Assembly (NCBI GenBank): GCA_024279425.1
Contig: JAJRRO010000059.1
Span: 62,001-126,000, forward strand
Reading direction: 5' to 3'
From: Bacteroidota bacterium
GTDB taxonomy: Bacteria; Bacteroidota; Bacteroidia; Flavobacteriales; Flavobacteriaceae
DNA length: 64,000 bases
In this document: positions 3,392-55,990 of the stretch, piece by piece
How positions within the stretch are numbered: position 1 is the first letter of the stretch
How the letters are laid out: each line of letters opens with the position of its first letter
Position numbers and translations under genes: made by a program
Notes under the pieces: model-generated
Databases searched by the model: none
What the model was told of the DNA's origin: nothing
The model's input: only the letters and a program-made list of their open reading frames with translations

Positions 3392-4702
3392 ATGCGTGTT
3401 AATGACCAAAGAAAAAAATTGTTTGCATTTAAATACGAATACAAACCTACCAACTGGATGACAAAAAAACCATGGGGTAATAGAGTTCTAATTGCTTTGA
3501 GTGCCGTAGGTCCGGGGTTGTTCCTCATCGGGTACAATATTGGTACAGGAAGCGTAACGACTATGGCCAAAACTGGGGCGGAATACGGCATGAGCTTGTT
3601 TTGGGCCCTTGTACTTTCCTGTATTTTTACTTATATATTAATGATTGCCTATGGCAAAGTGACCTTGGTCTCTGGCAAAACGGCATTGTTTAATTTCAAA
3701 ACGGAGTTCAAATGGGGTTGGATACTTTCACTCTATATCATTGTAGCCCTTATCATTGGTGAATTATTGGCCTTAATTGGTGTAATGGGGATAGTGGCAG
3801 ATTTAGTTCAAGAAGGAATACGGCTTGCGTTTAATGGACAGCAACTTGGAAAGTTTTGGGTAATCTTATTTTTCGTGATTGTTTTGTCCTTTTTCCTGTG
3901 GTTTGGAAGATATAAGATCTTTGAAAAGTTGTTGACCGTTTTGGTGTTTCTAATGGGATTATCATTTATAATGGTTCTTTTTATGGTTAAACCAAGTATG
4001 TCCGCCCTTATGGAAGGTCTGATCCCCTCCATTCCTGACACACCGGGTGCTCTTGGACTTATAGCTGCCATTGCTGGAACAACTTGTTCTGCTGCTGTTT
4101 TTATAATGAGAAGTACTGTTGTCGCTGAAAAAGGATGGACGATTAGGGATTTGAAAAAAGAAAAAACAGATGCCTTCGTATCCGCTGGCACAATGTTGTT
4201 ATTAAGTGGGGTAATAATGGCCGTCGCGGCAGGAACGTTGCATATAGCCGGTTTAAAGTTGGACAATACGATTGAAATGATCGATTTATTCAGACCTTTT
4301 GGAGGGGAAACCGCTGCTTTTATTCTGATTATTGGAATTACAGGAGCTGGGCTTTCTACAATATTTCCTATTGTTTTAATAGCCCCTTGGCTGCTTTCAG
4401 ATTACAGCGGTACACCAAGGAACATTCATTCAACCACCTCAAGGTGGCTCATATTCGGAGGCTTATTGTTTGCATTTGGAACTGTTTTTTTAGAGGAAAG
4501 ACCACCTGCTCTAATGGTATTCTCGCAAGCTTTTCAAGCATGTATCCTTCCAGCTGTAGCCATTCCCATATTCATTTTGATCAATAAAAGTCAATTAATG
4601 AACCAGCATAAAGCCAGTACCATGCTGAATGTAAGCATAGTGGCGGTTATTGTATTTTCATTGATTACCTCTTGGTTCGCTTTAACCGATTTTTTCGGGT
4701 AG
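3392..4702 (+). CDS. Nramp-fold transporter lacking the canonical metal motifs
   Basis: This 436-residue multi-pass membrane protein has about eleven hydrophobic segments and the Nramp (SLC11) layout: GPG in the first helix and a long conserved sixth helix. Classical Nramp proteins carry DPGN in helix 1 and a Met-Pro-His motif in helix 6 that coordinate Mn2+ or Fe2+. Here those places read IGYNIGTGSV and FIMRSTVVAEKGW, so neither is present. The substrate therefore cannot be assumed to be a divalent transition metal. A paralogue with the same G-x-G-S and EKGW signatures lies at 50772-51992. The gene stands alone, divergent from the transhydrogenase operon. Confidence 0.8.
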   Translation: MRVNDQRKKLFAFKYEYKPTNWMTKKPWGNRVLIALSAVGPGLFLIGYNIGTGSVTTMAKTGAEYGMSLFWALVLSCIFTYILMIAYGKVTLVSGKTALFNFKTEFKWGWILSLYIIVALIIGELLALIGVMGIVADLVQEGIRLAFNGQQLGKFWVILFFVIVLSFFLWFGRYKIFEKLLTVLVFLMGLSFIMVLFMVKPSMSALMEGLIPSIPDTPGALGLIAAIAGTTCSAAVFIMRSTVVAEKGWTIRDLKKEKTDAFVSAGTMLLLSGVIMAVAAGTLHIAGLKLDNTIEMIDLFRPFGGETAAFILIIGITGAGLSTIFPIVLIAPWLLSDYSGTPRNIHSTTSRWLIFGGLLFAFGTVFLEERPPALMVFSQAFQACILPAVAIPIFILINKSQLMNQHKASTMLNVSIVAVIVFSLITSWFALTDFFG

Positions 4703-46038: not shown

Positions 46039-47262
46039 CTAATTCACTTTAACTACCAAAGGATTCATCAACCGCTCCCTAAAATACAAAATTTCTTTTT
46101 CGGGCATTTCTTCATCTGCATGAAAAATTAAATAGGCATTCTTTTCATTATACCGGCTCCCTTTGGGTAAGCTTTGGATGGTATCAGATAATACGCGATT
46201 CCAATAACGGCCGTTACCCCTTGATTTGCTTATTTTGGTGTAAGGCTTGTATGTAGGCGAAAGATTTCCATCAACGTTTAAATTGTCATACTCAATCCGA
46301 ATAGAACCAAAACCATATTTTTTTTCATTATGATAGAAAGCGACAAAAACCGCATCGTCGGGTATGGGACTTTCTTCCAATACCTCCAATTCTTCATCAT
46401 ATAATTTGAGATGTTCAATGTCACCTTCTTTCTTTTGATATACTACATGGGTAAAAAGGCTGTCCATAGTCATTTCATCATTGCGTAACAAATCGAGTTC
46501 CACATCATCGTTCATTTCTATGGTAGATTCGAAATTAAAATAGGGAAGTCCGCTATAAAAAGTGTATTTGCCTTTTAAGTCGATTTCTGGGACACTATCT
46601 GTAACTCCCGAACGGTTTTTTACAATCTGGTACATTCCCCTAGTGATATCATTTCGAGAAGAAGACGATAAATCCTCAAAATTAAAATAGCTTTCCGAAC
46701 TGCTCTTTGAGAAGTTTGGCGCCCAATGCATCGAAATATGGCCTCGCTTTAGCAATTTGTCATTAAAATCTTTTAAAACTATTCCGTTGATTTGACCTCC
46801 ACGCTTATCTTCGTCGATGCTGAAGAATACTTTATAAGTCTTGTTTTCAATGGACATCCCATCTTTGGAAAATTGAATTTTAGAGGGTACACCTGCATGT
46901 GTTTTATCCGTTGACTGTAACTGAAATTTTCGCATTTCGTATGCCTTTACAGCAACCGGAAACAGTATTCCTAATACGGATTTACCTTGATTTTGAATAG
47001 TATCCAGAATTTGAACGGGAATAGACATTCCACTTTGAACATCAGAGGCTATTAGTATTTCAGAATCTTTTTGTAAAAACTCCAATGGGATTTGTGCGGA
47101 AACATATTCCGTTTCCCTATCCAAGCCCTTAGTTTCAGAAACCGAGATTATGGTTACCGGATTGGGGCTTGAACAGCTAGAAACTATTGTACAAATCAGC
47201 GCCCCAAAAAAAATACTTAGTTTTGACCGTTTGATAAAAAATATGATGCTACTATTTTTCAA
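46039..47262 (-). CDS. Lipoprotein of unknown function in catabolic operon
   Basis: This 407-residue protein has a lipoprotein signal (IVSSCSSPNP, Cys ~30). The rest is beta-rich and acidic (RETEYVSAQIPLEFLQ, YFNFESTIEMNDDVEL, RYWNRVLSDTIQSLPKGS). It resembles jelly-roll or lyase-like surface proteins of glycan utilisation, but no motif allows a family call. It lies 21 bases after the Gfo/Idh/MocA gene and shares its operon. A ligand-binding or lyase role in the periplasm or at the surface is a guess. Confidence 0.65.
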   Translation of the reverse strand: MKNSSIIFFIKRSKLSIFFGALICTIVSSCSSPNPVTIISVSETKGLDRETEYVSAQIPLEFLQKDSEILIASDVQSGMSIPVQILDTIQNQGKSVLGILFPVAVKAYEMRKFQLQSTDKTHAGVPSKIQFSKDGMSIENKTYKVFFSIDEDKRGGQINGIVLKDFNDKLLKRGHISMHWAPNFSKSSSESYFNFEDLSSSSRNDITRGMYQIVKNRSGVTDSVPEIDLKGKYTFYSGLPYFNFESTIEMNDDVELDLLRNDEMTMDSLFTHVVYQKKEGDIEHLKLYDEELEVLEESPIPDDAVFVAFYHNEKKYGFGSIRIEYDNLNVDGNLSPTYKPYTKISKSRGNGRYWNRVLSDTIQSLPKGSRYNEKNAYLIFHADEEMPEKEILYFRERLMNPLVVKVN

Positions 47263-47283
47263 TGTCTTCGATTTAATTCATTT

Positions 47284-48591
47284 TTACAAAACCTTTACCC
47301 TAGGTTTTGGTATGCTATAATTGCCGTCAGTTAATGGTGCGTTGGGCATTTCCATATTCCAAGAAAAGGTTTCGGGTACGATTCTAAGTTCGGAAGTCTT
47401 AGCCTCCTCAAGCTCGATAATTTCACCGGATTCGATGGCCATACGACCCATTATAGTAGTTAGTGTACTTTCCGCACCGTATTTTGTGTTGTTTATATAT
47501 GGTTTTGTTCCCATAACAGCACCGATAAACACATCTTGTTCGATTTGTGATGAAGGACGGTCATCTTTGTCACGGTAGCGCCAAAAGGCATTCCCTTGGG
47601 TGTCCAAAAGTTGGCATCGCTCATTAGCTCTTGCTTTTGAACCCTGAACGTTGAAACCCATTCGGTTAGCGCAATTATCCATCTGCCGGCATTGTACATG
47701 AAGTTTGGTGCCGTCTGCATATTCCATTTCGACATAATGGTGGTCGAAAATCTCACCATGGTCCGGGCCTTCGAGCATCGCCCTACCACCCATTCCGCTT
47801 GCTTTCATGGGATACTCTTGTTTAATCCAGTTGATTACATCGATTTGATGAATGGCCTGCCCTGCTAGTTGCCCGCCCCATAACCAGTTGAAATAATGCC
47901 AATTGCTGATCTGGTACTCCAGCTCGGTCTGGTCCGGTTTTCTAGGATGCACCGTTGCCTTGCCCACATTGTAATATACATCGGTAGAAAGAATGTCGCC
48001 TATTTCGCCCGCATGAATCTTACTGACCATTTCATTCATACCAATTTCATAACGGGATTGCAAGCCTACTACTACGTTCAACTTTTTCTGTTCTGCCCTT
48101 TCTCCCACGGCTATAATTTTTCGATACCCCGGCCCATCAACGGCTAGCGGTTTCTCCATAAATACATGTTTTCCAGAATTTATGGCGTGTTCAAAATGTT
48201 CCGGACGAAAACCTGGTGGCGTAGCCAGAATAACCGCATCACATTCGGCAATAACATTTTTGTAGGCATCCAAGCCCAAAAACTGTCGCTCTCTAGGCAC
48301 ATCGACCTGCTCCAGGAAATTTTTGGATACGTTTTGAAAACTAGAGTCCATCTCATGCTGAAAGACATCGCCCATAGCTACTAGTTGTACCGATTTTGAG
48401 GCGGTCAAAGCCTGAAAAATGGCACCCGTTCCCCTACCTCCACAACCTACAAGTCCTAATTTTATTTTTTCCTGCCCCAAGACATTGACACTTGAAAATA
48501 CGGGCAGATGACCAAATACCATACCGGCTGCTACCGTTTTTGCCGTACTCTTTACAAAGTTTCTGCGCGTTTTATTTCCTTTTTTATTCAT
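47284..48591 (-). CDS. Exported Gfo/Idh/MocA family oxidoreductase
   Basis: The start at 48591 (MNKKGNKTRRNFVKSTAK) gives a twin-arginine signal; the longer frame upstream overlaps the previous gene. The mature protein has the NAD(P)-binding motif GLVGCGGRGTGA, the family signature EKPLAVDG with its catalytic Lys, and a C-terminal substrate domain with NWLWGGQLAGQAIHQIDVIN, where His probably acts with Lys. Tat-exported members with bound cofactor act on sugars in the periplasm. The substrate is unknown. Confidence 0.88.
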   Translation of the reverse strand: MNKKGNKTRRNFVKSTAKTVAAGMVFGHLPVFSSVNVLGQEKIKLGLVGCGGRGTGAIFQALTASKSVQLVAMGDVFQHEMDSSFQNVSKNFLEQVDVPRERQFLGLDAYKNVIAECDAVILATPPGFRPEHFEHAINSGKHVFMEKPLAVDGPGYRKIIAVGERAEQKKLNVVVGLQSRYEIGMNEMVSKIHAGEIGDILSTDVYYNVGKATVHPRKPDQTELEYQISNWHYFNWLWGGQLAGQAIHQIDVINWIKQEYPMKASGMGGRAMLEGPDHGEIFDHHYVEMEYADGTKLHVQCRQMDNCANRMGFNVQGSKARANERCQLLDTQGNAFWRYRDKDDRPSSQIEQDVFIGAVMGTKPYINNTKYGAESTLTTIMGRMAIESGEIIELEEAKTSELRIVPETFSWNMEMPNAPLTDGNYSIPKPRVKVL

Positions 48592-48620
48592 CTTTTTGTT
48601 TTCTCTAAAATAATGATTTT

Positions 48621-49703
48621 TCAATAATTCCCATTTTCTATATCGTTCAACCACCTACTGTTATTTTGCCTTACAAATACATCATCGTTCAAGTTGGGGT
48701 AATCTTTATATACTCTATCGATTTCTTCTTTTTGACCTACTGACAAGGTTTCGTTCTCATCTAAACACCATGTTCCCTTCAATAAACCTTGCCGCCTTAA
48801 AACTTCATGAATTCCTGCGATACAGCCTCGAAAATTATTGGCAACGTCAAAAAAAGCAGCGTTCGTATCGGTTACCGCAATATTAAGCGTCATTAATTCC
48901 TCGGGAATGTTGTTCCCCGATTTTTTGACTTTATGTATGTGCTTCAATAGCTCCACTGCCTTAAGTGTCCAAACCGCCCAGTGACCTAGTAATCCTCCAA
49001 CAATATCCTTTTTTATTAATTCTCCTTCGACATGGACTTCATAGGTGGTCAAAAGATCGGCAACGATATTATCATCATTGCCTGTATATAGTGCAATATC
49101 ATCTCGGCGAGAAGAAGCACATACAGCACGAACCACTTCTAAGGTCTGATACCGATTGAAAGGGGCCATTTTGATAGCTTGTACATTTTCAATTTCCGAA
49201 AAGGACTTCCAAAAATCATGGCTTAAGACCCGACCGCCAACGGCAGGCTGCAGATAAAACCCGAAAACAGGAATTACTTCAGCTATTTTTTTTGTGCGCT
49301 CCAATAGGGCATCTTCATCCCAGTTACCCAGCCCATTCGTGCTGACCAATACAATATCATAACCAAGTTCTGCACAAATCTCGGCTTCGTTTATAGCTTG
49401 TTGATTATTGCCACTCACTCCAGCCACTTTGATGAAAGGCCGATGTAAATCTGCCCTCTCGATTTCTTCAATGGCCAATTGCAATACTTTGTGATATAGA
49501 TTTATTTTTGGATCCCTAATCTGGAACTGGGTTGTGTGTACACCAATGGCGATACCCCCTGCACCTGATGCCATATAGTATCTGGTCAATAACCGTTGTC
49601 GATTCTCGTCGAGCAACCGGTCTTCGGTCAACGCCAAGGGATGGGCAGGTATTACAGTACCCTTATGGAGCAATCTTTTAATTTCGGGATTTAGGGTTTT
49701 CAT
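48621..49703 (-). CDS. Dihydrodipicolinate synthase/N-acetylneuraminate lyase family protein
   Basis: This 360-residue TIM-barrel protein has the Schiff-base Lys in VQAIKMAPFNRY, a Tyr in VFGFYLQPAVGG and the N-terminal HPLALTEDRLLDENRQ with GAGGIAIGVHTTQ. This branch is longer than DapA and NanA and is common in sugar-acid gene clusters, where such enzymes cleave or dehydrate keto-sugar acids to give pyruvate. It lies between the epimerase (37 bases upstream) and the oxidoreductase in the operon. The substrate is not known. Confidence 0.85.
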   Translation of the reverse strand: MKTLNPEIKRLLHKGTVIPAHPLALTEDRLLDENRQRLLTRYYMASGAGGIAIGVHTTQFQIRDPKINLYHKVLQLAIEEIERADLHRPFIKVAGVSGNNQQAINEAEICAELGYDIVLVSTNGLGNWDEDALLERTKKIAEVIPVFGFYLQPAVGGRVLSHDFWKSFSEIENVQAIKMAPFNRYQTLEVVRAVCASSRRDDIALYTGNDDNIVADLLTTYEVHVEGELIKKDIVGGLLGHWAVWTLKAVELLKHIHKVKKSGNNIPEELMTLNIAVTDTNAAFFDVANNFRGCIAGIHEVLRRQGLLKGTWCLDENETLSVGQKEEIDRVYKDYPNLNDDVFVRQNNSRWLNDIENGNY

Positions 49704-49740
49704 TTTTTAACGTGAATTTCATTCTTTAAAGGTATTTGGG

Positions 49741-50760
49741 CTAGAAGTCTCCCTTTCTTTCTTGAAAGTGTGTCGGCTTGCCGAGTTGCTCGCCACCTGT
49801 TTTAACCCAATGAGCTGTCCACTGTATCATTTCATCAAGGGAAACCAAAGGGTTTCCGAACAATTTATAAGACTGAGAGGCATCGTTCAATAAAGCCGTC
49901 TCGGCCGGACTATTTTCAAAAATAGGATCTTTGTCCAATAATTTTCCGAATTCCTTGGCAAGCCATTTAACGGATATGGTCTCCGGCCCCGTTATGTTCA
50001 TTTTTTTTGCGGGCGATTCGCAGTGTAATAGACTACGAATAGCATATTCATTGGCATCACCCTGCCAAATAACATTTGCGAAACCCATGCTCAAATCGAT
50101 GGGTTTATTGTTCATTACCTTATTTGCAACTTCCAACAAAACCCCATACCTGAGATCTAGTGCATAGTTCAAACGGTACAAAACCATTTTTATACCATTC
50201 TTGATACAAAAATGCTCGAAGATACGTTCCCTTCCCAGACAGGACTGTGCATATTCTCCAATGGGAGATGGCTTAACATCTTCCTTTGCACCACCACTAT
50301 CGATAGGCATGAAGGGGTATACGTTTCCTGTAGAAAATACGACAATTTTGGAATTCCTGTATTTTTCGGAAACCCTCCCTGGAAGGTAAGCATTCATTGC
50401 CCAAGTAAAATGTTCATTGCCAGATGTACCAAACTTATTACCTGCCATGTAAATAATATTCTTGGCTTCAGGTAGTTGCATCAAAGCATCGTCGTTCAAC
50501 AGATCCACTTTAATACATTCGATACCAAAATCTGTTAATTCTTTGAAAAGGTCTTTATCGGAAAATCGGGAAGCCCCCATTATTTTTTTATGGGTACCAG
50601 ATGCATCGACCGCCTTTTTTGCAAGCTTGGCCAAAGTCGGCCCCATTTTTCCACCCAAACCTAAAATCATAATATCGCCTTCGATCTTGGCCATATCTTC
50701 AATAAGACGTTTTGAAGGTTCAGAGAGCCTTGTCTCCAGCTCCTTAATCGTATTCATCAT
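49741..50760 (-). CDS. NAD-dependent epimerase/dehydratase family protein
   Basis: This is a 339-residue extended SDR-like protein. The nucleotide-binding segment is MILGLGGKMGPTLAKLA, somewhat different from the usual GxxGxxG. Later blocks are NIIYMAGNKFG, VVFSTGNVYPF and PIGEYAQSCLGRERIF, where Tyr is followed by Cys rather than the usual Lys spacing (Y-x3-K), so catalysis may differ. It starts 11 bases after the stop of the Nramp-like gene, in the same operon. It probably acts on a sugar or sugar acid. Confidence 0.82.
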   Translation of the reverse strand: MMNTIKELETRLSEPSKRLIEDMAKIEGDIMILGLGGKMGPTLAKLAKKAVDASGTHKKIMGASRFSDKDLFKELTDFGIECIKVDLLNDDALMQLPEAKNIIYMAGNKFGTSGNEHFTWAMNAYLPGRVSEKYRNSKIVVFSTGNVYPFMPIDSGGAKEDVKPSPIGEYAQSCLGRERIFEHFCIKNGIKMVLYRLNYALDLRYGVLLEVANKVMNNKPIDLSMGFANVIWQGDANEYAIRSLLHCESPAKKMNITGPETISVKWLAKEFGKLLDKDPIFENSPAETALLNDASQSYKLFGNPLVSLDEMIQWTAHWVKTGGEQLGKPTHFQERKGDF

Positions 50761-50771
50761 TACCTTTTACG

Positions 50772-51992
50772 TTATTTCATAAAAATATTATAAGCGTTCG
50801 CCCCGGCCAAAAACAATAACAATATCAATCCCAAGATCAATACTCCCTGCAATGGTTTACCTATTCTAAAATGACTTTTTCCAGCTCTGTCCTTAGCAAT
50901 TAAATAGAGCATCAATCCGATTACAGGTACAACGATGATGGTGAAGCCCTGTGCCATAACTATTAGATCAATGGGCAGGCTCCCGAAAACAATCGCAACC
51001 GAAGCACCTATCAAAATGACAGACATGATAACATAACGTACTTTTTGGGATTCCAGTTTTCTACCAATATTGAGGGCATCCGATAGCAAGACCCCTCCCA
51101 GGGTTGCATTTCCTATTAAAGAGGAAAAGGAGGCTGCAAAAAGGCCGGACATAAAAATCAGCGTCGCATAACTACCGAAAATTGGCTCCAAAGTCTTTCC
51201 CATTTCAGTAGCGGAATTCACTTGTATGCCCTGAGGAAAGAGCACAGATGCGGCCGTTAGCATTACCGTGGACGTTATGATGCCCAAAATAAGGACACCA
51301 GATATGCATTCACGTTCATGAGCCTTTGATTTACTCTTGTCCCATCCTTTTTCCTGCACCAAATATGATTGGTAAAAGGCCCCGGCAACCGAAAAACTAG
51401 AAGCCACCAACCCAAAGGTCAAAAATTCGGAACCACTGGGCAAGCGAAAATCGAACTGGGTTACCAAAAGCGGGATATCGGGTTTTGAAATAATCAGGGT
51501 AATAACAAAACAGACCAGCATTAGAGCCACCATGGCAATCATGATCTTTTCCAGAATCTTGAAGAAAGACTTAAAGAACAACAGTATGATAGCAATGACC
51601 GAAAAGGCAATTACCCAAGGCACCGACGAAGAATCAAAAATCTCACCGAACACCATACCCGCACCAATAGAGTTACCTGCCTGAAACGAAGCTGCTACGA
51701 CAAAAAGACCAACTCCGATGATTATACAGACGGCATTCCCATATTTTTCACGAATCAACTGGATCAAGGTACGGTCCGAACTGAGCCCGATACGTGTGGA
51801 AATAATGGTGAAGGCTCCCATAAATAGGATACATAGCGGTACGATCCAAAGCAACTGAAATTCATAAATCGCCCCAATTTTAGAGGCTATCGCAAGACTT
51901 CCGGGGCCCAATACCAGTGCTGCGGTTATAAATCCAGGGCCGACAAGGTTGAATATACTCTTTGATTTTTTTTCGGTCATTTTGAATTTCAA
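50772..51992 (-). CDS. Nramp-fold transporter without metal motifs, first gene of a catabolic operon
   Basis: This 406-residue protein with about eleven helices has Nramp topology. Helix 1 reads GPGFITAALVLGPGSLAIAS, with GPGS where DPGN is expected. Helix 6 reads GAFYQSYLVQEKGW instead of the Met-Pro-His motif. The G-x-G-S and EKGW marks are shared with the transporter at 3392-4702. It heads a minus-strand operon with epimerase, DHDPS-like, Gfo/Idh/MocA and lipoprotein genes, all of sugar-acid catabolic type. This suggests an organic or unusual-ion substrate rather than Mn2+/Fe2+. No other transporter is in the operon. MTEKK, four codons in, is an alternative start. Confidence 0.78.
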   Translation of the reverse strand: MKFKMTEKKSKSIFNLVGPGFITAALVLGPGSLAIASKIGAIYEFQLLWIVPLCILFMGAFTIISTRIGLSSDRTLIQLIREKYGNAVCIIIGVGLFVVAASFQAGNSIGAGMVFGEIFDSSSVPWVIAFSVIAIILLFFKSFFKILEKIMIAMVALMLVCFVITLIISKPDIPLLVTQFDFRLPSGSEFLTFGLVASSFSVAGAFYQSYLVQEKGWDKSKSKAHERECISGVLILGIITSTVMLTAASVLFPQGIQVNSATEMGKTLEPIFGSYATLIFMSGLFAASFSSLIGNATLGGVLLSDALNIGRKLESQKVRYVIMSVILIGASVAIVFGSLPIDLIVMAQGFTIIVVPVIGLMLYLIAKDRAGKSHFRIGKPLQGVLILGLILLLFLAGANAYNIFMK

Positions 51993-52224: not shown

Positions 52225-53229
52225 ATGAATGAGAGCGAATTAATAGCATATTTGGTTCATAAAGGGCTTATTAAAGCCGACGGTATTCAGGTAACTCCAT
52301 TAACAGGGGGTGTTTCCTCCCAGATATTATTAATAGATGATGGGGAGCATCGCCTTGTTTTAAAGCGAGCATTGGAAAAGCTTAATGTAAAAGAGGATTG
52401 GTTTGCAGACGTTAAACGAAACGTTATAGAACAGCAATATTTAATATATGTGGCTGGTTTTATGCCAGAGGCTGTTCCTGCAATTCTTTATAGTGACGAA
52501 ACTCACAATTTTTTCTGCATGGAAATGTTAGAAAATGGATTACAAAATTGGAAAACCTTATTGCTAAATAAGCAATTCAATTTGGCATATGCGGGAAAGG
52601 CGGGAAAAGTACTTGCTGAAATTCATTTAAAATCTATAAACAATTCAAAACTGGGGGAAGAGTTCGATACACTTGATAACTTTTCAGAGTTAAGAATTGA
52701 ACCCTATTTATTGGCTACAGCAGAAAAAAATGAATTATTGGCTTTCTTTTTTAAAGCAGAAGCAAAACGTTTGGCAGAGACAAAATTTTGTCTTGTACAT
52801 GGAGATTTTAGTCCCAAAAACATACTGGTGAACGAAGAGCGTTTGGTTATACTTGATTGCGAAGTTGCTTGGTACGGCGACCCGGTATTTGACATCACAT
52901 TTTTACTAAACCACTTTGTTTTGAAGGCATTGTATTTAAAAGAAGATGCTGGTAAATTGATGCAAATGGCTGAATTGGTTTGGGAATCTTATATCACCGT
53001 AATTAATAATGAAGTAGACAGTCGATTTGAAAACAGAGTCATACATTTATTACCTATGCTTATGTTGGCACGGGTAGATGGAAAATCACCTGTAGAATAT
53101 CTGAGTACAGAAAATCAAAACGTTGTAAGAGGGTTTGTGAATAATGAATTGCCTAATAGTTCGAAAATATTTAAAGATTTTAAAGAAAATTGGTTGCAAA
53201 CAGTAAATAAAATAACAGATGAAGATTAA
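52225..53229 (+). CDS. APH/choline-kinase-like small-molecule kinase
   Basis: This 334-residue protein has the aminoglycoside-phosphotransferase fold: PLTGGVSSQILLID as the nucleotide loop, LVLKRAL with the ATP Lys, the catalytic loop VHGDFSPKNILV and the metal-binding DCEVAWYGDP. The family phosphorylates hydroxyls of small molecules (methylthioribose, homoserine, choline, aminoglycosides). It overlaps the following enolase-like gene by 11 bases, so the pair is translationally coupled and probably acts in sequence: phosphorylation, then dehydration. The substrate is unknown. Confidence 0.85.
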   Translation: MNESELIAYLVHKGLIKADGIQVTPLTGGVSSQILLIDDGEHRLVLKRALEKLNVKEDWFADVKRNVIEQQYLIYVAGFMPEAVPAILYSDETHNFFCMEMLENGLQNWKTLLLNKQFNLAYAGKAGKVLAEIHLKSINNSKLGEEFDTLDNFSELRIEPYLLATAEKNELLAFFFKAEAKRLAETKFCLVHGDFSPKNILVNEERLVILDCEVAWYGDPVFDITFLLNHFVLKALYLKEDAGKLMQMAELVWESYITVINNEVDSRFENRVIHLLPMLMLARVDGKSPVEYLSTENQNVVRGFVNNELPNSSKIFKDFKENWLQTVNKITDED

Positions 53230-54508
53230 AAACATTGATGCATATCAAATATATGATTCTAGAGGGTTTCCAACGGTTGAGGTAGAAGTAATACTTGAAA
53301 ATGGCGTGAAAGGTTATGGTTTGGTTCCTTCAGGGGCATCAACAGGACAATTTGAAGCTTTGGAGTTAAGAGATAAAGACGAAAATCTATTTAAAGGAAA
53401 GTCGGTTTATAAGGCAATTTCGAATGTTAAAAATAAAATAGCTCCCTTACTCGTTGGGGAATCTGTATTTGAGCAAGAAACTATCGATCAAAAAATGATT
53501 GATTTAGACGGTACACAGAATAAATCTAGACTAGGTGCAAATGCCATTTTGGGAGTTTCAATGGCCATGTCTAAAGCAGCTGCGAACGAAAAAGGAATCC
53601 CACTTTATGAATATTTAGGTAATGGTAAAGGAAATTTAATTCCATTAAATGAAATTCAAATTTTAGGTGGTGGTGCACACGCAGATTGGGCAATTGATAT
53701 TCAAGATTTCTTAGTTATTGCAATTGGAGCGAAAACCTATGAAGAAACCTTGGAGATGACCTACAATATTTACCATACCGCAGGCCAAATAATGAAAGAA
53801 AAAGGGAAATGTGTTGGTATTGCCGATGAAGGTGGTTGGTGGCCGGATTATGTTTCAAACGAAGAACCTTTTGAGGTTTTAATGGAAGCCATTCAACGTG
53901 CAGGATATATTCCAGGAAAAGATGTTGGAATTTCGTTAGATATTGCAGCAAGTGATTTGTATGATGGAGAACACTATAAATTCCAATTAACCAATGAGAC
54001 CTTCACACGTAAAGAGTTTTATGACTTAATGGTTTTGTGGTGTACAAAATATCCAGTAATCTCTATAGAAGATCCTTTTGCAGACACCGATTTTGAAAGT
54101 TGGAAACAATTTACTCAGGAATTGGGTCATAGAGTTCAAATAATTGGAGATGATTTATTTACAACAAATATAAAGCGTATTGAGCAAGGTATAGAGGAAA
54201 AGTTAGCCAATTCAGTATTAATAAAACTAAATCAAATTGGTTCGGTGTCTGAAACGATTAAGGCCATTCGTCTAACCCAAAAAGCCGGGTGGTTGCCAGT
54301 GGTTTCTGCAAGGTCGGGAGAAACAGAAGATGCCTTTATTTGTCATTTAGCGGTAGGTACTAATGCGGGGCAATTAAAGGTGGGGTCTTTTGCTAGAAGT
54401 GAACGTATGGTAAAGTGGAATGAAAATTTAAGAATTCAACGCAGTTTGGGAGATAATGCTAAATTTATTGGAGGTAAAATTTTTCAAAGAATTTTTAAAA
54501 AGGTGTAG
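53219..54508 (+). CDS. Divergent enolase paralogue with altered active-site residues
   Basis: This 429-residue protein is clearly of the enolase family: SGASTGQFEALELRD, GADEGG-like ADEGGWWPDY, SIEDPFADTDFESW, IIGDDLFTTN, LIKLNQIGSVSET and RSGETEDAF. By yeast numbering (from memory) the metal Asp/Glu set, Glu211 and Lys345/Lys396 are kept. Glu168 is Asp here (DIQDFLV instead of the IQEF pattern), and the substrate-binding His373 is Ala (VVSARSGETED instead of SHRSGETED). It is therefore probably not the glycolytic enolase. It is coupled to an upstream small-molecule kinase. Confidence 0.85.
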   Translation: MKIKNIDAYQIYDSRGFPTVEVEVILENGVKGYGLVPSGASTGQFEALELRDKDENLFKGKSVYKAISNVKNKIAPLLVGESVFEQETIDQKMIDLDGTQNKSRLGANAILGVSMAMSKAAANEKGIPLYEYLGNGKGNLIPLNEIQILGGGAHADWAIDIQDFLVIAIGAKTYEETLEMTYNIYHTAGQIMKEKGKCVGIADEGGWWPDYVSNEEPFEVLMEAIQRAGYIPGKDVGISLDIAASDLYDGEHYKFQLTNETFTRKEFYDLMVLWCTKYPVISIEDPFADTDFESWKQFTQELGHRVQIIGDDLFTTNIKRIEQGIEEKLANSVLIKLNQIGSVSETIKAIRLTQKAGWLPVVSARSGETEDAFICHLAVGTNAGQLKVGSFARSERMVKWNENLRIQRSLGDNAKFIGGKIFQRIFKKV

Positions 54509-54670: not shown

Positions 54671-55990
54671 TTATTTCAACCAACGGTCAAACCAATCGAA
54701 TGCGTCCTTTTGCATCACCACATCAAATTTATGTCCCCCTGGATAAAACTTGCCTTTATATTTGTCCGCGGCACCTGCTTTGCTAAAGACCTCCTGTAAA
54801 ATTTCATCGGCCTTTTTCATTTCGGGTAAGGTGTATAATTCGTCTTCACTATTGCTAAGCACCATGGTGGGCAGGGGTACACGGAGCCCTAACACTTCCG
54901 GGAAATCCAAATATTTTGACAAGAGTGGGATATAAGTCATCCAGGTATGGGTGAATGACTTGTTAAGTAAAAAATCTTTCCATGTGGACATAAACCCAAC
55001 ACTTATTGCACATTTTATCCTGTTATCCAGACCACCCAGATAATCCGCCCGTAATCCTCCTCCGGACAGGCCACAGCATCCCACGTTTTCCGTGTCAACA
55101 TCGGATCGTTTGCATAAAATATCTAATGCAATTTGATCATCGGCCAATGTCATACCAGGCCAAGTGGTTCCAGAGCAGAACAAAGATTTGGACATGATAT
55201 GCTCATGCTCGGCGGCCCATTGATTATATACCTTTATGTTTTCAATAGCTTCGGAGTTTTCGTCGGTCTTTTCCCCTACCCTACACTCGCCCCAGGTAAT
55301 GCCCGTCACGTCTTTGTACCTGACTCTTCGTGATCCAAAAGTGAACACATCATGTACCATCACCACATAGCCACGTTTGGCCAATTCGTTGGCCCAGGGC
55401 ATTCCGGAATAAGAGTTTTTTTGATGTTCAACAATTGTCGGATGCATGTCATCGGAAGTTCTGGTAATCTTTCTTTTTCCAAAATATTTTTGACCGCCAT
55501 GATCATGCAATCCCAAAACCGCCGGTAATGGTCCCGTTGTCCCTGCAGGCTTCAACAAAATCGCTTCTGTTGGGCTTCCATAGGGCAGTTGCCATTCCAA
55601 TTCCTCGATGATCAATCCATCATACTCATATCTGGCTTTTACGATTATATCGGGAATATTCTCCTTTAAAGCTGGAGCGGCCATCAGCTCCCGAGTTTTT
55701 GTCAAAGCCTGTTCGCGCCAGGCAGTTATATTAGTCCAATGTGAATTTCTAAATGAGAGCGTCGGAGGGTTTTCTACCATTTCCGCAGCCCAGGGACCAT
55801 ACGCTCCGATAATACTCATGCCGTCACTCATTGTTTTAAGGGTATCCTGCTGAACATATTTCTCAGTATGTGGGAAAATATTTTTCAAGTCATTGGGAAG
55901 TACAGGCATTATGCCAAAAGCTGCTGCCGAAGTTAGAAATTCCCTTCTTGATCTTATCTGTGCATTTGAGCCTTCTTTCTTTGTCTTCAT
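54671..55990 (-). CDS. Tat-exported alpha/beta hydrolase (acetyl-xylan-esterase-like)
   Basis: This 439-residue protein starts with a twin-arginine signal (RSRREFLTSAAAFG). The alpha/beta hydrolase core shows the oxyanion region VLGLHDHGGQKYFG, the Ser nucleophile in CCGLSGGGLRADYLGG near residue 300, Asp in NSEDELYTLPEM and His in YPGGHKFDVV. It is related to esterases acting on acetylated glycans and to the two-domain esterase at 29462-31519. It stands alone, convergent with the enolase-like gene. Confidence 0.83.
   Translation of the reverse strand: MKTKKEGSNAQIRSRREFLTSAAAFGIMPVLPNDLKNIFPHTEKYVQQDTLKTMSDGMSIIGAYGPWAAEMVENPPTLSFRNSHWTNITAWREQALTKTRELMAAPALKENIPDIIVKARYEYDGLIIEELEWQLPYGSPTEAILLKPAGTTGPLPAVLGLHDHGGQKYFGKRKITRTSDDMHPTIVEHQKNSYSGMPWANELAKRGYVVMVHDVFTFGSRRVRYKDVTGITWGECRVGEKTDENSEAIENIKVYNQWAAEHEHIMSKSLFCSGTTWPGMTLADDQIALDILCKRSDVDTENVGCCGLSGGGLRADYLGGLDNRIKCAISVGFMSTWKDFLLNKSFTHTWMTYIPLLSKYLDFPEVLGLRVPLPTMVLSNSEDELYTLPEMKKADEILQEVFSKAGAADKYKGKFYPGGHKFDVVMQKDAFDWFDRWLK

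Follow-up and report, generated by a model that had tools for sequence, protein, structure and literature searches.

The window, by which we mean the whole 64,000-nucleotide stretch of Bacteroidota DNA analysed here, carries on its forward strand a kinase gene (52225..53229, 334 aa) and, directly after it, the gene of an enolase paralogue (53219..54508, 429 aa). The first product is a small-molecule kinase of the APH family with a methylthioribose-kinase fold, proposed here to be an L-glycerate 2-kinase, and the second is a proposed 2-phospho-L-glycerate dehydratase giving phosphoenolpyruvate (PEP). The ORF coordinates bear out the 11-base overlap of the two genes (53219..53229, forward strand) given in a preliminary description of this DNA, and from it we infer that translation of the two is probably coupled; in relatives, the kinase/enolase junctions are usually short overlaps or short gaps. 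Since the next gene downstream (54671-55990) lies on the opposite strand and the gene upstream (50772-51992) is divergent, the pair is apparently its own transcription unit.

The upstream gene belongs to an apparent operon on the reverse strand (46039-51992), which looks like a separate sugar or sugar-acid pathway and encodes a 407-aa protein without a Pfam match, a Gfo/Idh/MocA oxidoreductase, a DHDPS-like protein (under its cut-off), a 339-aa epimerase-like protein without a Pfam match and an NRAMP-like transporter. A function for the pair tied to these divergent genes was considered and rejected; they are unusable for this purpose because, among the clustered loci, their sole shared relative is an epimerase-like protein in one locus (L031). 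The window has two NRAMP-type transporter genes, one at 50772-51992 (reverse strand), divergent from the pair, and one at 3392-4702 (forward strand; judged by eye). Their products read GPGS and GTGS at the position of DPGN, which we take to be the metal-binding motif of NRAMP transporters, and helix 6 seemingly lacks MPH; judged by these residues, the two are possibly carriers of non-metal cargo.

The window kinase matches the APH model PF01636 at 62.1 bits (cut-off 23.2), and a Pfam scan with E up to 0.001 returned besides this only a sub-cut-off RIO1 match, and no match to PF05161 (MOFRL) or PF02595 (Gly_kinase). The APH motif HxDxxxxN and the Asp that follows it are present and invariant in 40 aligned rows, so that the preliminary description was right in stating that the APH motifs are kept. 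In the catalytic loop HGDFSPKN (residues 192-199, codons 52798..52821, forward strand), H192, G193, D194, S196, P197, K198 and N199 are invariant among the 40 aligned kinases, and we assume for HGDxSPKN and the following Asp the meanings usual in such kinases. A second stretch, RVDGKSPVEY (residues 283-292, codons 53071..53100, forward strand), is a signature of the kinase group, with R283, D285, G286, K287, S288, P289, E291 and Y292 invariant in the same alignment, and is possibly a carboxylate-binding motif. An AlphaFold2 model of the kinase has a mean pLDDT of 95.6, and its best Foldseek matches are methylthioribose kinases (top E 1e-17, TM 0.87, about 18% identity). MtnK (TIGR01767) is therefore the nearest fold, and it is also the nearest NCBIfam model; the window kinase differs from it in this low identity, in the possession of its own signature RxDGKSPxEY and in a score of 65.8 bits against a cut-off of 275, which rules out a plain methylthioribose kinase. 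We file the protein as a new branch near the methylthioribose kinases.

The enolase matches both enolase domains (PF00113 and PF03952) and passes the curated model TIGR01060 with about 550.5-550.9 bits (cut-off 300). Aligned with its relatives and with the other enolase of the same genome, and with residue numbers and catalytic roles that we take over from yeast enolase, it reads S39, H159, D168, E211, D246, E295, D320, K345, A373, R374, S375 and K396. Ten of these twelve catalytic positions are unchanged and E168D and H373A alone differ, as had been claimed for these two changes in a protein that otherwise keeps its metal and base residues; D and A thus stand where glycolytic enolases are recognised by Glu168 and His373. 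The codons concerned are those of Asp163 (53705..53707, forward strand) and Ala364 (54308..54310, forward strand), and yeast enolase mutants at Glu168 and His373 have reportedly been studied. The paralogue shares with glycolytic enolase (TIGR01060) the fold family, the metal ligands, Lys345, Lys396, Glu211, His159, Ser39, Arg374 and Ser375, but is set apart by the two substitutions, 16 further diagnostic positions, a separate clade and the adjoining kinase gene, and is 47% identical to the ordinary enolase of its own genome. We class it as a distinct paralogous branch within the enolases, rather than as a glycolytic enolase.

Genome contigs were scanned for relatives, and of the 123 obtained the 80 best loci were retained; one of these (L061) proved to be an ordinary enolase, leaving 79 paralogue loci. 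Judged by record titles and tree labels, these (from the best 80 of 123) fall in Bacteroidota, Balneolota, Verrucomicrobiota, Planctomycetota, Acidobacteriota, Myxococcota and Pseudomonadota, and many are MAGs. Residues were compared between the window protein plus 77 of these loci (best 80 of 123; the partial rows L027 and L048, which likewise read D and A, were left out) and 31 ordinary enolases. Position 163 is D in 78 of 78 paralogues and E in 31 of 31 ordinary enolases, and position 364 is A in 78 of 78 and H in 31 of 31 (best 80 of 123); with these two included, 18 positions split the 78 from the 31 almost completely. The remaining ten catalytic positions are constant across the 78 paralogues (best 80 of 123) except for Asn in place of Lys345 in L081, the end of L017 being missing. 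In a maximum-likelihood tree (quick method) the 78 form one clade with 100% SH-aLRT support. A degenerate or dying enolase copy was also considered and was rejected in view of the fixation of D and A in 78 of 78 (best 80 of 123), the retention of the rest of the active site apart from Lys345 in L081, the single clade and the linkage to a kinase (below). In L053, L077 and L081, from Rhodospirillales-type genomes, SerA-like and SerC-like genes (read by eye) stand divergent beside the pair.

A housekeeping enolase elsewhere in the genome, as the preliminary description would expect, was found at G000:C65:116576-117850 (672.6 bits), with E168 and H373. An ordinary enolase is likewise present in 30 of the 30 further genomes searched, 29 of them entering the residue comparison and one, that of L024, having as its second enolase a partial gene that is also ordinary.

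The pairing of the two genes holds beyond the window. The kinase gene lies directly upstream of the paralogue in 76 of the 78 testable loci (best 80 of 123), 70 of them recognised by clustering and six by tblastn; L043 and L044 are without a kinase upstream, and L048 begins at a contig edge. In Vibrio halioticoli (L018:4139-6400) kinase and enolase share one open frame of 753 aa, an apparent in-frame fusion seen in one draft genome, which may be an assembly error because it is the sole fusion among six kinase-bearing genomes of that genus.

Relatives were also sought from the kinase side, with a kinase alignment and, for plasmid proteins, with the Litoreibacter kinase. The gene was found in one genome (that of the window itself) out of 120 from its family, in seven of 395 of its phylum (its own included) and in six of 148 of the genus of L018 (L018 included), and is thus a sporadic accessory gene. 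The plasmid search returned 31 records, including Rhizobium, Rhodococcus and haloarchaea, of which 14 were opened; together with the seven from the phylum and the six from the L018 genus they make 27 kinase-side matches, at least four of which are genomes of the first set. An enolase is present in the fetched stretch in 26 of these 27, the exception (L127) being a broken kinase on a stretch of 2155 bases, and all 26 enolases read D and A, haloarchaea and Rhodococcus included; in L146, kinase and enolase are each spread over two frames. Because the enolases of L130-L132 and L136-L140 are among these, with most other diagnostic residues absent but D, A and Ala202 kept, the two changes follow the kinase beyond close relatives.

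No third partner is general to the pair: among the 79 loci (best 80 of 123), the next clusters reach 19 and 16 loci. An ALDH occurs in 19 of the 79, immediately before the kinase except in L011, and a relative of FAH-family (diketo-acid) hydrolases in 12 of the 79; the two occur together in none, and neither is found in 48, many of these stretches ending at contig edges (all counts from the best 80 of 123). This mutual exclusion is only suggestive and statistically weak, because both sets follow taxonomy, and one plasmid (L140) has distant relatives of both, at 32 and 33% identity. Ahead of the kinase, an ALDH is likewise present in five of six matches from the L018 genus and in a Persicobacter plasmid. 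ALDH and hydrolase alike yield a carboxylic acid, which would be a natural substrate of the kinase. The closest match of the L005 hydrolase is L-2,4-diketo-3-deoxyrhamnonate hydrolase 8gsr, at 243.5 bits against 161.3 for the next best, and for the hydrolase nearest 8gsr the NCBIfam score is 319.5 bits, under the cut-off of 500. In the window neither an ALDH nor an FAH-family hydrolase adjoins the pair; the best hydrolase relative of the genome is 52% identical and lies on another contig, with an SDR-like gene also there, and the best ALDH relative is 31% identical. On another contig of this genome (L119:5208-7229), two adjacent ORFs appear by eye to be one glycoside hydrolase split in two frames, near a sulfatase-like gene and SDR-hydrolase genes (likewise by eye).

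Several of these neighbourhoods suggest the use of L-sugars. On the aldehyde side, the clusters of Vibrio sp. qd031 (L028) and Aporhodopirellula (L012) resemble an aldol route: they encode an isomerase, a kinase that is ketohexokinase-type or PfkB-like, and either a class II aldolase or a protein with weak aldolase similarity. The isomerase (L011:2109-3623, L012:5162-6724 and six other loci) is aldose-isomerase-like and without a Pfam match in the scanned member; a model of the Pelagicoccus protein shows, with moderate confidence (mean pLDDT 77.4), the L-arabinose/L-fucose isomerase fold, and sequence comparison with solved structures found nothing meaningful for the isomerase of the Vibrio and Rhodopirellula clusters. 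A further family (L012:7796-8905 and six other loci), without a Pfam match in the scanned member and with a weak aldolase-type NCBIfam match, sits in L012 between the ketohexokinase-type gene and the kinase-enolase pair. In Arenibacter and a member of the Balneolaceae (L035) the route is oxidative and comprises an SDR, a lactonase, a dehydratase and a hydrolase, and plasmids of Paracoccus and Roseibium carry SDRs, a hydrolase and a sugar ABC transporter with the pair. The cluster of Microbulbifer HZ11 (L063) is flanked by genes for a porphyranase, an agarase-type protein, a CBM6 protein and a sulfatase, and a second member of the Balneolaceae (L033) has an L-rhamnose-isomerase-like gene near the pair (490.5 bits, cut-off 646.75). 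In L047 an FGGY kinase precedes the pair and LutA- and LutB-like genes follow it directly, with a LutC-like gene and the end of an isomerase read by eye.

According to an excerpt of PMC11199699, the non-phosphorylative route III converts L-fucose or L-rhamnose to pyruvate and L-lactate. Its characteristic combination of SDR and FAH-family hydrolase (FucF/FucG, LRA5/LRA6) also stands beside the pair in some relatives, with the hydrolase in 12 of the 79 loci (best 80 of 123) and none beside the window pair. The known route stops at L-lactate (as excerpted in PMC11199699); the pair-bearing clusters have in addition a kinase and an enolase, the two enzymes that would be required for a C3 acid bearing a 3-hydroxyl. 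Glycerate is such an acid and can serve as an enolase substrate, but lactate, with no hydroxyl at C3 to be eliminated, cannot, and 2-phospholactate was rejected as an intermediate for this reason. A 1979 study in mammals, present by its title in the reference list of PMC13406643, concerns conversion of L-galactose to L-lactate and glycerate.

Other neighbours point elsewhere. Dehydrogenases of the D-isomer 2-hydroxyacid family adjoin the pair or lie near it in Rhizobium, Pararhizobium, Cupriavidus, Rhodococcus, Sphingobium, Halomarina, L050 and L057, the one that was searched being nearest to D-3-phosphoglycerate dehydrogenase and glyoxylate reductase, and they would point to D-glycerate in these cases, or to some other acid for that branch. 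In the cluster of the Rhizobium and Pararhizobium plasmids, a PEP carboxylase stands beside dehydrogenase and kinase genes, an arrangement that resembles a segment of the serine cycle; the C-terminal part of a PEP carboxylase lies at the edge of the Cupriavidus stretch, and the enzyme was found in none of the 79 loci (best 80 of 123). Extradiol-dioxygenase-like genes, just under the cut-off of the HpaD model, accompany the pair in the Rhizobium (L135:13199-14200) and Sphingobium (L140:6680-7702) plasmids, so that the acid may come from aromatics in that branch.

The rhizobial dehydrogenase and PEP carboxylase, together with the MOFRL glycerate 2-kinase that adjoins the pair in L024, speak for the main rival explanation, one we consider unlikely but the most serious: the kinase would act on D-glycerate, as a 2-kinase of a new class, and the paralogue would carry out the usual enolase reaction on 2-phospho-D-glycerate, having been retained for reasons of dosage, regulation or channelling. 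Against it stand an ordinary enolase already present in 30 of 30 genomes, and the change in 78 of 78 paralogues (best 80 of 123) of two residues that, by the yeast structures, lie around the leaving hydroxyl. The proposed reaction of the window kinase, 2-phosphorylation of glycerate feeding an enolase, is like that of the known glycerate 2-kinases (MOFRL/GckA and GarK; PF05161 and PF02595), but these are different protein families. They are encoded in 27 of 31 genomes (12 with MOFRL, 16 with the GarK type, one genome with both), and one of their 32 genes, that of L024 beside the paralogue, is close to an enolase, a count limited by draft contigs. That the APH kinase travels with an enolase and the conventional glycerate kinases do not is most simply explained if its product is not 2-phospho-D-glycerate.

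As regards the final product, the lack of a generally conserved third partner suggests a common metabolite, probably PEP, and the PEP carboxylase of the two rhizobial plasmid clusters (with its C-terminal part in Cupriavidus) fits this. The preliminary description had supposed that a hydroxy acid is phosphorylated and then dehydrated, to which part of the neighbourhoods does point, and that the resulting enol-phosphate is other than PEP, a supposition left unsupported, as no enzyme acting further downstream generally accompanies the pair. In that form the explanation calls for a larger 2,3-dihydroxy acid, such as erythronate or threonate; H373A and E168D could free room near C3, and the substrate assigned to the kinase is a prediction. 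We regard it as improbable, given the PEP carboxylase in two rhizobial plasmid clusters (0 of the 79 loci, best 80 of 123), the want of a conserved product-using enzyme beside the pair, and hexose-type pathways around part of the pairs, which end in C3 acids. Glycerate, which was among the substrates listed earlier, is the candidate adopted here, and the unusual feature of the module is probably the stereochemistry of this substrate.

Very improbable, in our judgement, is a further explanation, by which 3-sulfolactate from sulfoquinovose would be 2-phosphorylated and lose sulfite to give PEP, the ComA reaction run backwards. It draws on genes upstream of the pair at L073:2653-5965, which are galactarate-dehydratase-like (138.1 bits), sulfolactate-dehydrogenase-like (184.7 bits, cut-off 500) and YeiH-like (138 bits, cut-off 232.6), the same clusters being upstream in L070 (both Roseibium-type genomes), and on the L012 isomerase, which scores 88 bits against the sulfoquinovose isomerase SftI (cut-off 700). 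However, the leaving group still has the acidic residues E211 and D168 around it, sugar ABC binding proteins, one of them named glucose-binding, are nearest to the L074 binding protein, and agar and porphyran are not known to contain sulfoquinovose. A further point against it, from an excerpt of PMC6336799, is that the same dehydratase family includes enzymes acting on L-galactonate and L-fuconate.

Given L-sugar settings, and if the product of the kinase is not 2-phospho-D-glycerate, 2-phospho-L-glycerate is the best candidate, and we lean, by a little over an even chance, to a pair composed of an L-glycerate 2-kinase and an enolase paralogue for 2-phospho-L-glycerate. The pair, its conservation, the two fixed residue changes, the second enolase and the neighbourhoods are observed; predicted from them are the substrates and their stereochemistry, the product, and what each change does. 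On this prediction, the kinase would use ATP to phosphorylate the 2-hydroxyl of L-glycerate, the paralogue would remove water from 2-phospho-L-glycerate to give PEP, and pyruvate kinase would convert this to pyruvate, recovering the ATP. The L-glycerate would come from unusual L-sugars such as red seaweed contains, and more precisely from L-hexoses, of which L-mannose and the L-galactose in agar and in porphyran are examples. It would be formed in one of two ways, through aldol cleavage giving L-glyceraldehyde, which is then oxidised, or through hydrolytic splitting of a 2,4-diketo-3-deoxy acid. A housekeeping enolase would accept 2-phospho-D-glycerate only, and such a kinase would need an enolase of its own. 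The geometry of the active site is argued from yeast enolase structures, in which, we assume, Glu168 and His373 surround the hydroxyl that departs and Lys345 is on the other face; the C2 proton of the L-form would be directed towards the Glu168/His373 face, and E168D and H373A would then reshape the side on which the C3 hydroxyl leaves and that proton lies.

Several observations count against the L-glycerate reading. The D-isomer-family dehydrogenases near the pair would by their family make D-glycerate, a MOFRL kinase stands beside the pair in L024, and 48 of the 79 loci (best 80 of 123) have neither ALDH nor hydrolase; the window has no acid-producing neighbour, PEP carboxylase occurs in none of the 79 loci (best 80 of 123), and L081 has Asn345. 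Nor does the reading account for turnover of an L-substrate with Lys345 kept.

Among open-licence full-text literature we recognised no paper that deals with the pair or with an enolase acting on 2-phospho-L-glycerate, and an excerpt of PMC13228409 indicates that both enantiomers of 2-phosphoglycerate are sold commercially. Few enzymes are as conserved as enolase, and automatic annotation labels it glycolytic; the paralogue passes the curated TIGR01060 model, and its relatives are named phosphopyruvate hydratase in seven annotated plasmid records. The broader proposition, which we judge to fall just short of evenly balanced, is that an old enolase branch with its own kinase, spread through bacteria and archaea, performs a second, mirror-image enolase reaction from 2-phospho-L-glycerate to PEP, giving L-glycerate and L-glyceraldehyde a direct entry into lower glycolysis. 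If true, a reaction of inverted stereochemistry would be hidden under the name phosphopyruvate hydratase, and the L-glyceraldehyde and L-glycerate derived from L-sugars would gain an enzyme pair for their fate.
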